Shown here piece after piece: positions 52,981 to 55,658 of a DNA stretch of 64,000 nt. This DNA is from Pararhodobacter aggregans (GTDB taxonomy: Bacteria; Pseudomonadota; Alphaproteobacteria; Rhodobacterales; Rhodobacteraceae). Under the pieces are notes generated by a model. It was given only the letters and a program-made list of their open reading frames with translations. It was not told the origin of the DNA and ran no database searches. Every line of letters starts with the position of its first letter. The stretch's first letter is position 1. The translations under genes and the position numbers were made by a program. The stretch lies in assembly GCF_003075525.1 (NCBI RefSeq), contig NZ_QDDR01000003.1, forward strand, positions 186,001-250,000, written 5' to 3'.

Positions 52981-53319
52981 GGATGGTCCTCCCAGACCCG
53001 CGCCGCCCCTGACCCGGCGTTGGCCGCCGGTGCCGGTCCTCCGGACGCGTCAATCCAGAATTGCTGCAACCCTCCTGCGATTCAACCGTTTTTCGACCGA
53101 ATGGGAAAAAGCGACGTCGGGGAACCCTGCGTCCCGACACCATGGCAAAAGTGTGGCAAAGGTTTGCACACATTTGGATTTGTAGCCCCGGCGGAAACAA
53201 AACTCTTCTTCTGCGTGCATTGCGGGGTTATTCTTCACGTGTGTCCGACCGTATTTTTCGCTGCCCTGACCAGTACGGGTCGTATCGATCTGCTGCAAAG
53301 CTAACCTTTGGGGGTTCTC
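52981..53319. promoter_or_regulatory. Divergent promoter region with palindrome (liv operon / transglutaminase-like gene)
   Basis: This 339-base region holds no supported gene. It is moderately AT-rich around 53140-53300. A perfect palindrome GCAAA-GG-TTTGC lies at 53156-53167, next to direct repeats of TGGCAAA at 53143 and 53154. This could be an operator for either divergent unit. On the minus strand TTGACG near 53047 is a possible -35 for livH, but I could not find a matching -10. Confidence 0.4.
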
Positions 53320-54393
53320 ATGCCAAATCTCGCTGCCGAAAAGTTCAACCCTGAATTGCTCTCGCTGTTCAGGGACTCAACTCTCGGCCTTTATCTGGAC
53401 GGTTTCGAGGACGAGATCTTCGCCCGTGGCCGCGTCCGTCACCTTGCCCCCGGCGCCCATCTGGAGATGACCGGCGATGCGCCGCTCAATGTCGTGCTCG
53501 ACGGTCGCCTGGCCGGTGCGCGGGGCTGGTACGGGCCCGGCAACCACTTCGGCGCCGACCAGAATGACCTTCTGGCGGTCGACATGCCGGCCCGCGTCTG
53601 GTCGCTGGACAGCCAGAACGCCAGCCGCGAGCAGCACCGCGTCATCGCCAAGGCGCTGATCGGCGCCGATGCCGCCGAACTGGCCGCGACGCCCCCCGAG
53701 CACCTGCCCGACCCCGAGACCCTGTGTAACCACGAACACCCCGAGATCCGCCGTCAGGCCGCCCGTCTGCGCCGCGCCACCCCCGCCAGCACCGCCGAGG
53801 CGATCCTCAAGTTCGTCCATGCCATGCCCTACCGCTTCGGCGCCTGGCAGGAGCGCGCCTCGGACACGCTGGTGCGCGGTGTCGGCATGTGCACCACCAA
53901 GACCAACCTGCAGGTCGCGCTGATGCGCGCCGCGGGGCTCGAGGCCGGCTTCGCCGAAATTCCGATTTCCACCAGTGTGTTGGGCAAGCTGATGCCGACC
54001 GGCTGGCTGGCCCTGCAACGCCCGAGCGTGCGCCATTACTTCGGCGCGGTGAAGCTGGGCGGGCGCTGGCACGGGGCGGATGCCTCCTACGATTACGCCA
54101 GCTATCGCATCTTCCTGGAGATGTTCCCCTGGATGGCGCCGCGCGAAGAGCCGGTCCTGACCGAGGGCAGCCCCTATATCCCGTCGATGGAGATCCAGCA
54201 CCTCGACCTCTTCGACATCACGGTCGTACCCTCGATCGCCGAGGAGATGGGCAAGCGCAGCCGCTTCCTGACCCGTCATTTCGAGGCGCTGAACACCCGC
54301 GTCGACCGCGCCCGCGGGGCGCATCTGAAATGGCGTCCGGGCCTCGACCAGATTGCGCAGACCAGCGCGCAGGACGACGAGGTGCGTGCATGA
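53320..54393 (+). CDS. Transglutaminase-like protein with N-terminal cNMP-binding-like region
   Basis: This 357-residue protein has a C-terminal transglutaminase/protease-like core with a plausible triad: Cys191 in VGMCTTKTNLQVALMRAAG, His239 in VRHYFGAVKLGG and Asp254 in WHGADASYD. The Cys context with ALMRAAGLEAGFAEI is the usual family pattern. The N-terminal 110 residues (HLAPGAHLEMTGDAPLNVVLDGRLAG...GPGNHFGADQNDLL) resemble a degenerate cyclic-nucleotide-binding beta-roll, a reading I hold with limited confidence. There is no signal peptide, so it is cytoplasmic. The ATG at 53320 is used although weak upstream sites exist. Its stop overlaps the CoaBC-like start (ATGA), implying joint function. 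The true substrate is unknown. Confidence 0.75.
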   Translation: MPNLAAEKFNPELLSLFRDSTLGLYLDGFEDEIFARGRVRHLAPGAHLEMTGDAPLNVVLDGRLAGARGWYGPGNHFGADQNDLLAVDMPARVWSLDSQNASREQHRVIAKALIGADAAELAATPPEHLPDPETLCNHEHPEIRRQAARLRRATPASTAEAILKFVHAMPYRFGAWQERASDTLVRGVGMCTTKTNLQVALMRAAGLEAGFAEIPISTSVLGKLMPTGWLALQRPSVRHYFGAVKLGGRWHGADASYDYASYRIFLEMFPWMAPREEPVLTEGSPYIPSMEIQHLDLFDITVVPSIAEEMGKRSRFLTRHFEALNTRVDRARGAHLKWRPGLDQIAQTSAQDDEVRA

Positions 54394-55658
54394 GCCTTTA
54401 CGACTGGGACTTCCGGGCACCCACGCCGTCCAGCATGGGCGACCACGACGTGCCCCGGGCGTCCGACCGGCTGGCGGGCAAGCGCATCGCGCTGCTCGTC
54501 ACCGGCGGCATCGCGGCGATGAAGACCCCGGAAGTGGCGCGCGGCCTGCGCCGCCACGGGGCCGAGGTGGTGGCCTTCGCCAGCGAGGACGCGCTGCGCT
54601 ACGTCGCGCGCGAGGCGCTGGAATGGGCCACCCTGGGCCCGGTGGTGACCGGCCTGACCTGGCGGGCCGAGCATCTGAGCGATTCGCAGCCCTTCGACGC
54701 CTATCTGCTGGCCCCGGCCACCCATTCGACCATCGCCAAGATGGCGCATGGCATTGGCGATTCGGTCGTCACCTCGACGCTGATCTCGGCTTTGGGGCGA
54801 ATGGAGCAGGGCCGCGCGCAGGTGCTGGTGGCGCCGACCATGCACGGCACGATGCACAACGCGCAGCTGGTGGACAACGCCCGCCGTCTGGCCGCGCAGG
54901 GCGTGCATCTGATCGCGCCGCGCGACGCCTATGGCAAGCACAACCTGCCGGAAACCGAGTTCCTCTGCATCGCGGTCGGCCGGGCGCTCAGCCAGTCGCG
55001 GCTGCGCGGGCGGCGGATCATGGTCACGGCGGGCCCCACCCCGGTGCCGATTGACGGTGTGCGGCGCATCGTCAACCGCTTCCGCGGGCGACTGGGCGCG
55101 CAGGTGGCCGAGGAACTGACCTGGCGCGGGGCCGAGGCCGAACTGATCCTCGGCGACGGCGCCTGGCGGCCGAAGACGCCGATGCCGATCACCGTGACCC
55201 GCACCTATGACGAATACCGCGACACGGTGGTCGAGCGGGTCAAGGCCGGGGTCTGGGCCGGGATCTTTTCGGCGGGCGTCGCCGATTACCGGCCGAAACA
55301 GGCGGTGCAGGGCAAGATCGCCTCGGGCCAGTCCAGCCTGATGCTGGAGTTGGAGCCGACCGAAAAGGTCATCGACATGGCCATGGCCGCCGATCCCGAC
55401 ATGCACACCGTCGCCTTCAAATATCTGGAAGGCGTCAGCGAGGACGAGCTGATCCGCGTCGCCGCCAAGCGGCTGGACCGGGCCGGGGTGGTTGTGGCGA
55501 CCCGGGGCGAGGATACCCGCGGCACCGACCAGCGGGCGCTGATGGTCTATCCGCATGGCGTCACCCCGATCGAGAACAAGCGGGCCATCGCCAACGCGAT
55601 TGCCGACCACCTGGAAGGCCTGGCCGGGCAAGCGGCGATGCTGAACGCTGCCGAATAG
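54390..55658 (+). CDS. Divergent CoaBC-like flavoprotein, probably not a canonical PPC decarboxylase
   Basis: This 422-residue protein has the CoaC flavoprotein half (IALLVTGGIAAMKTPEVARGL; LLAPATHSTIAKMAHGIGDSVV) and the CoaB ligase half (IMVTAGPTPVPIDGVRRIVNRFRGRLG; GIFSAGVADYRPK). Hand comparison with E. coli CoaBC keeps the catalytic His (His95). In place of the conserved Asn of PxMNxxM there is His152 (PTMHGTMH), and no cysteine lies in the usual substrate-clamp loop (residues 179-192). In the ligase half SSGKMG becomes FRGRLG and KxKK becomes KIAS, though Asn229 and Lys309 remain. A Pro-rich 28-residue extension precedes the flavin domain. Annotation pipelines will call it CoaBC. I favour a paralogue with altered chemistry. 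Confidence 0.78.
   Translation: MSLYDWDFRAPTPSSMGDHDVPRASDRLAGKRIALLVTGGIAAMKTPEVARGLRRHGAEVVAFASEDALRYVAREALEWATLGPVVTGLTWRAEHLSDSQPFDAYLLAPATHSTIAKMAHGIGDSVVTSTLISALGRMEQGRAQVLVAPTMHGTMHNAQLVDNARRLAAQGVHLIAPRDAYGKHNLPETEFLCIAVGRALSQSRLRGRRIMVTAGPTPVPIDGVRRIVNRFRGRLGAQVAEELTWRGAEAELILGDGAWRPKTPMPITVTRTYDEYRDTVVERVKAGVWAGIFSAGVADYRPKQAVQGKIASGQSSLMLELEPTEKVIDMAMAADPDMHTVAFKYLEGVSEDELIRVAAKRLDRAGVVVATRGEDTRGTDQRALMVYPHGVTPIENKRAIANAIADHLEGLAGQAAMLNAAE

Follow-up and report, generated by a model that had tools for sequence, protein, structure and literature searches.

What does a second, remodelled copy of CoaBC do in a bacterium that keeps the canonical one? The question arises in a stretch of 64,000 nucleotides from the alphaproteobacterium Pararhodobacter aggregans (contig NZ_QDDR01000003.1, positions 186,001 to 250,000; hereafter the window). 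The CoaBC-like protein encoded there is a member of a separate deep clade, which we call the H-type. We think that the H-type is an alternative CoaBC, whose flavin half decarboxylates 4'-phosphopantothenoylcysteine (PPC) as CoaC does, without the Asn of the PxMN motif or the Cys of the clamp loop. We give this reading, which is drawn from the distribution of the genes among genomes, a probability of about 0.7. Since the H-type is the sole candidate for the CoaC step in many bacteria, it probably makes coenzyme A (CoA), not something new. It is a widespread and little-noticed branch of CoaBC: a literature search, with most subscription journals outside it, showed no paper on the clade among the titles and starts of abstracts listed. 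The gene and the relevant parts of its product are the following.

54390..55658, + strand: H-type CoaBC-like protein, 422 amino acids (aa), an intact open frame with an ATG start and a TAG stop
54480..54890, + strand: flavin domain (HFCD, CoaC-like), residues 31-167 (Pfam PF02441)
54672..54674, + strand: codon of the catalytic His95, within AEHLSD (His in 40 of 40 aligned rows)
54834..54860, + strand: PTMHGTMHN, in place of the canonical PAMNxxMW (translation and alignment)
54909..54965, + strand: shortened clamp loop LIAPRDAYGKHNLPETEFL, with no Cys (alignment)
55002..55616, + strand: ligase half (CoaB-like), residues 205-409 (PF04127 over residues 205-367, CoaB-type matches up to residue 409)
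55074..55097, + strand: NRFRGRLG, in place of the canonical N-x-SSG-x-x-G (translation and alignment)
55314..55325, + strand: KIAS, in place of KxKK; the structure 2gk4 has KISS (alignment)

Read directly from the translation, PTMHGTMH occupies residues 149-156, NRFRGRLG 229-236 and GKIAS 308-312, residues 174-192 hold no Cys, and His95, Asn229 and Lys309 are present, all as described in an earlier note made from the sequence alone. That note regarded the protein as a paralogue with remodelled sites, and there is indeed a canonical CoaBC elsewhere in the window's own genome (G000:C20:23447-24616, 391.9 bits in a TIGR00521 profile search), with the motifs PAMNVRMW, MACGEHGPGRM, NRSSGQQG and KMKK and 30% identity to the H-type copy. 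The possibility that alignment would restore the Asn or the Cys in shifted positions was rejected: the canonical ACGEHGPGRM lies opposite a gapped DAYGKHNLP in the H-type, and position 193, just downstream of the clamp, is a Cys in 9 of 40 rows. The alignment of the two copies suggests that the Cys-bearing segment of the clamp was deleted in the H-type, where the clamp window spans 19 residues against 25 in the genome's own canonical CoaBC.

Both Pfam matches of the window protein exceed the curated cut-offs (Flavoprotein, E 5e-21; DFP, E 2e-26), and it belongs to the HFCD family with 75.3 bits to PF02441 against a gathering score of 22.7. It scores 204 bits with TIGR00521, the CoaBC equivalog model, below the cut-off of 219.7, and by this curated cut-off lies outside the canonical CoaBC equivalog. 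Twelve other H-type proteins pass the cut-off, with 225-251 bits, in the 49 genomes searched.

Relatives were taken from public genomes as the best 80 of 95 confirmed loci, with an alignment of three Rhodobacteraceae orthologues as the query. As 78 of the 80 fetched loci contain MHG[TS]MHN, which served as one of two patterns in the search, the family as sampled is biased to this motif and the conservation of its seven residues is partly a product of the way loci were chosen; the clamp and His95 are free of that bias. Going by record titles, or by ranks read from these, the relatives span at least six named phyla (Pseudomonadota, Bdellovibrionota, Planctomycetota, Cyanobacteriota, Acidobacteriota and Myxococcota), from SAR324, and from single bins labelled Bacteroidetes and KSB1. 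Their marks are AEHLSD, P[TA]MHG[ST]MHN and the shortened, Cys-less clamp PRxxYGKHNLP. All 40 aligned rows, including the window protein, have E94-H95 and M-H-G-x-M-H in common (His95, Met151, His152, Gly153, Met155 and His156), Gly182 and Lys183 are invariant, and none has a clamp Cys (0/40); chance does not explain this pattern. A single branch of an unrooted tree of flavin domains splits the 40 H-type from 13 canonical rows with a support of 100/100. Related proteins with MHGDMHN or PTMN exist and were left out of the tree. Among 18 Rhodobacteraceae-type orthologues (153 pairs), the median ratio of nonsynonymous to synonymous substitution rates, by simple NG86 estimates, is ~0.12 for the flavin half and ~0.18 for the ligase half. 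Hence, both halves are maintained, even though a canonical CoaB is present too.

The case for PPC decarboxylation lies in what H-type genomes lack. We searched 49 of them, from 50 of the 80 loci, with TIGR00521. Outside Rhodobacteraceae, 37 of 38 have neither a canonical CoaBC nor a complete canonical CoaC by this profile, the exception being Rubrivivax (G550). The H-type is paired with a separate CoaB in G536, in G540 and in eleven genomes, mostly Planctomycetota/Phycisphaerae, in which it consists of the flavin domain alone. Five CoaBs of these eleven genomes were read, four of them intact and the fifth cut by a contig end; that of G540 is intact too. The fused H-type form occurs in the Planctomycetota bins G553, G557 and G559. 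A suspected CoaC remnant before the CoaB of G536 has weak support, from a test in which 6 of 45 canonical CoaC halves scored above every one of 100 shuffles. In G572 (loci L251 and L253) the ligase half of the H-type is decayed, and the genome holds another CoaB-like piece, its frame broken in this assembly. In the remaining 23 genomes the H-type is alone, save for weak matches of 20-23 bits in two.

We then asked PF02441 which HFCD proteins 43 of the 49 genomes encode, four with a canonical CoaBC serving as controls (G526, G527, G529 and G550). The 39 genomes with an H-type and no canonical CoaC have exactly one HFCD protein in 25 cases and one more in 13; G567 has two further matches, one a UbiX and one a CoaC-like fragment (36 bits). 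All extra full-length HFCD proteins (14/14) pass the UbiX model TIGR00421, leaving the H-type as the sole complete non-UbiX PF02441 protein in 39/39. In a survey of Planctomycetota, based on the best matches listed, 117 of 118 genomes had no more than two HFCD proteins.

Bdellovibrionota also have stand-alone CoaC-like proteins (L271-L275, L280-L284) with P[TA]MN, in most cases followed by a clamp such as EEDRxKVP. Nine of the ten lack a clamp Cys (L284 has one), and their genomes have a separate CoaB match; they are possibly an intermediate type. An exact search for a 21-base motif matched 1 of 114 genomes in the Bdellovibrionota sample, and was too narrow because other H-type proteins vary (MHGDMHN in G657, MHGSMHH in G537).

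Eleven of the 49 genomes belong to the family Rhodobacteraceae: seven keep a canonical CoaBC and four, of the Roseibaca lineage (G531, G533, G534 and G574), have a stand-alone CoaB instead. Adding the window's own genome and G506, the canonical protein is kept in 9 of 13 genomes and a canonical CoaB, fused or alone, in 13/13. The four stand-alone CoaBs are intact (NRSSGAQG, KMKK), and their genomes have no HFCD protein beside the H-type. Three of the four records (R. ekhonensis, R. domitiana and Roseibaca sp. Y0-43) are not labelled as metagenome-assembled genomes. In G179, evidently the same genome as G531, the CoaB is separated from the gene before it by 30-60 bases, according to which start is taken, and a dUTPase-like gene follows immediately, as it does in the window's genome (neighbours named by eye). 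The locus itself thus lacks the CoaC half, and an assembly gap is not the cause. In a sample of 199 genomes of the family, three of which carry an H-type, TIGR00521 matches 197, and in 196 the score exceeds the cut-off; the sole genome with matches yet none over the cut-off is G179, an H-type carrier. The product of CoaB, PPC, is useful only if decarboxylated, and the H-type is the sole candidate seen for this step, so the gene loss points to PPC decarboxylation. Elsewhere in the window's family, the CoaBC match of G023:C11 and G170:C51 falls in two parts within one frame (547 and 460 aa), which suggests an insertion in an otherwise canonical CoaBC. Weak flavin-domain matches also lie inside frames of ~1205-1218 aa in G005:C31, G043:C1, G141:C1 and G524:C914.

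Are the missing Asn and Cys diagnostic? The CoaBC of Mycobacterium smegmatis (PDB 6TGV) reads PAMHTEMW and, in the alignment, has a clamp without Cys. The clamp of M. tuberculosis CoaBC presumably matches it. In M. tuberculosis, silencing of coaBC is reported to be bactericidal (PMC8205227). We also read canonical CoaBCs, 45 of the 48 tried (L041, L232 and L233 had no readable canonical frame), and the clamp Cys is absent from three: those of Shinella, Tsukamurella, which has PAMH as well, and Limosilactobacillus. Because accepted CoaBCs lack them too, the absence of the Asn or the Cys is no proof that PPC decarboxylation was lost. The substrate change that the earlier note deduced from these two residues thus loses its footing, and the 39 genomes without CoaC and the four Roseibaca-lineage genomes that kept CoaB argue further against it.

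Lys309, Ser312, Asp299, Phe343 and Lys344 are kept in 35/35 H-type ligase halves. Because KIxS and FK resemble 2gk4, with its KISS, KIAS need not mean a changed chemistry. The second position of the SSG motif is T in 18, R in 15 and S in 2 of the 35. FRG occupies the ligase loop of the Rhodobacteraceae-type members and also of G537, G538 and G539, which have no second CoaB match. FRG, unlike KIAS, is the real oddity of this half.

We propose that in the N-terminal domain flavin mononucleotide (FMN) and His95 would carry out the usual oxidation and decarboxylation of PPC, with His152 probably replacing the Asn of PxMNxxM in holding the substrate. Because the Cys-bearing segment is missing, the final reduction of the enethiol would be independent of the clamp Cys, and the invariant Gly182-Lys183 region, or water, may serve instead. 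The C-terminal half would be a retained CoaB-like ligase of the K-I-x-S / F-K kind. In Pararhodobacter the H-type coexists with a canonical CoaBC; Roseibaca has only the CoaB part of the canonical protein left, with the H-type as the sole candidate decarboxylase.

Several observations weigh against this proposal. Rubrivivax and 9 of the 13 Rhodobacteraceae H-type genomes, that of the window included, keep the canonical CoaBC; with it present, the window copy is dispensable for CoA and could have drifted. All three Cys-less canonical CoaBCs are among seven from plasmid records, and none occurs among the other 38 (Rhodobacteraceae and one Rubrivivax). In the ligase half, NRFRG is unlike the SSG of canonical CoaBs, and Asn229, found in 29 of the 35, is missing in six. 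Most sole-copy genomes outside the family are metagenome assemblies that may be incomplete, in which the absence of a match is by itself weak evidence, and 12 of 114 genomes in the Bdellovibrionota sample have no CoaBC match at all. The literature searched reports no enzyme activity of any H-type protein. According to PMC9604783, His, Asn and Met serve the first step and the Cys serves the reduction. Finally, the H-type gene of the window has a conserved partner that a plain role in CoA synthesis leaves unexplained.

53320..54393, + strand: partner gene, with an N-terminal cyclic-nucleotide-binding-like domain and a transglutaminase core; ATG start, TTG at 53308 also possible
54390..54393, + strand: ATGA, shared by the stop of the partner and the start of the CoaBC-like gene

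The overlap makes translational coupling of the two genes probable. A relative of the partner lies directly upstream of the H-type gene in 23 of 25 Rhodobacteraceae-type loci; of the two misses, L103 begins 205 bases from a contig end and L096 holds a piece of the partner in another frame. Only 2 of the 55 other loci have one, and the weaker, in Rubrivivax, is a different transglutaminase-like protein. In the family, 10 of 198 genomes have partner matches at E 0.001 or better, strong only in G000 and G179, both H-type carriers. The transglutaminase core was matched in 18/18 partner rows, with Cys191, His239 and Asp254 invariant (numbered as aligned, from the ATG at 53320). For the N-terminal domain, 2 of 18 rows give a match to the cyclic-nucleotide-binding family (best E 6e-10), the window's own protein not among them. 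The predicted structure has a mean predicted local distance difference test (pLDDT) score of 88.9, and a sequence search gave no solved relative. Beyond generic families (kinases, ABC ATPases) and lineage-shared genes, the partner is the only recurring neighbour among open reading frames of at least 80 aa.

The FRG loop and a partner that overlaps the gene would allow a further role in Rhodobacteraceae. The alternative that survives best grants the flavin half PPC decarboxylation and has the FRG ligase half and the partner put cysteine, then cysteamine, on a different carboxylate or protein. It would make sense of purifying selection on both halves despite a canonical CoaB in 13/13 Rhodobacteraceae H-type genomes, of the Cys, His and Asp kept throughout the partner rows, and of the different transglutaminase-like gene just before the H-type gene in Rubrivivax. 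However, among open reading frames of at least 80 aa no substrate or precursor gene was recognised nearby, only the partner recurring besides generic families and lineage-shared genes, and the three genomes with FRG and no second CoaB fit it poorly; we hold it to be unlikely. A further reading, about as unlikely, is a two-gene module of Rhodobacteraceae, the deltaproteobacterial bin L115 and Rubrivivax. Here the altered ligase half would couple cysteine to some carboxylate that is not phosphopantothenate, the flavin half, which has no clamp Cys, would decarboxylate the product to a cysteamine amide, the partner would make or break that amide under the control of a nucleotide-like ligand, and the same flavin half would have taken over CoA synthesis in Roseibaca.

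Below these two we place, as improbable, the earlier note's own reading, in which the CoaBC paralogue has been neofunctionalised and now uses some other acid, peptide or cofactor. The canonical CoaBC kept in the same genome, the replaced Asn and Cys, the FRG loop and the partner in 23 of 25 loci would all suit it. Yet H-types of genomes that have no other complete non-UbiX HFCD protein show the same flavin-site pattern, Roseibaca combines it with CoaB and no canonical CoaC, and accepted CoaBCs lack the same residues. Last, a non-homologous PPC decarboxylase or pantetheine salvage in the CoaC-less lineages, with the H-type unrelated to CoA, is very improbable: homology searches are blind to such a replacement, and M. 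tuberculosis is described as bypassing CoaBC when pantetheine is phosphorylated (PMC8205227), but several phyla would require the same unseen replacement, and an intact CoaB, the product of which calls for a decarboxylase, occurs in four genomes of the Roseibaca lineage, in G540 and in four of Planctomycete type. Phage or plasmid cargo was rejected as well: a viral scan gave 17 pattern matches and no relative among them, and 53 plasmid records had matches, all below 60% identity, with every annotated row among the 30 listed being coaBC.

If the H-type is an alternative PPC decarboxylase, the textbook need for the PxMN Asn and the clamp Cys falls, enethiol reduction without a Cys becomes a testable question, and an apparently missing step of CoA synthesis is filled where the H-type scores below the curated CoaBC cut-off. 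Roseibaca, which kept the H-type and CoaB and lost the canonical CoaC half, is a natural test.

How does the H-type compare with known systems? The cysteine decarboxylases EpiD, MrsD and CypD of ribosomally synthesised and post-translationally modified peptides (RiPPs) share the HFCD fold family and have no ligase half; their profile matches reach 25-54 bits, against 214 for 6TGV, and the NCBIfam CypD-type model gives the window protein 17 bits for a cut-off of 215. With no recurring small gene recognised as a precursor near the H-type loci, among open reading frames of at least 80 aa, we think a RiPP maturase unlikely. The chain 2gk4, labelled a conserved hypothetical protein in the PDB, is one that we take, from the name of TIGR02114, to be a streptococcal PPC synthetase (PPCS). 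Its KISS and GFK are like the KIxS and FK of the H-type, but it is a stand-alone ligase with NHSTGHLG and no flavin domain. The PPC decarboxylase AtHAL3a (1MVL, 1E20) has the catalytic His and the proposed first step in common with the H-type. According to PMC9604783, its first step needs His90, Asn142 and Met145 and its reduction Cys175; the H-type lacks counterparts of Asn142 and Cys175. The closest solved full-length protein, 6TGV, also has PAMH and a Cys-less clamp, but this clamp keeps its full length and contains SGPGRL, the SSG motif is present and the second Met is followed by a Trp. Canonical CoaBC/Dfp (TIGR00521) has its domains in the same order as the window protein and belongs to the same flavin fold family, HFCD; the catalytic His, the ligase Asn and the first Lys are common to both. 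The window protein differs by its place in a separate clade, by PxMH for PxMN, by a shortened clamp with no Cys, by FRG for SSG and by KIxS for KxKK.

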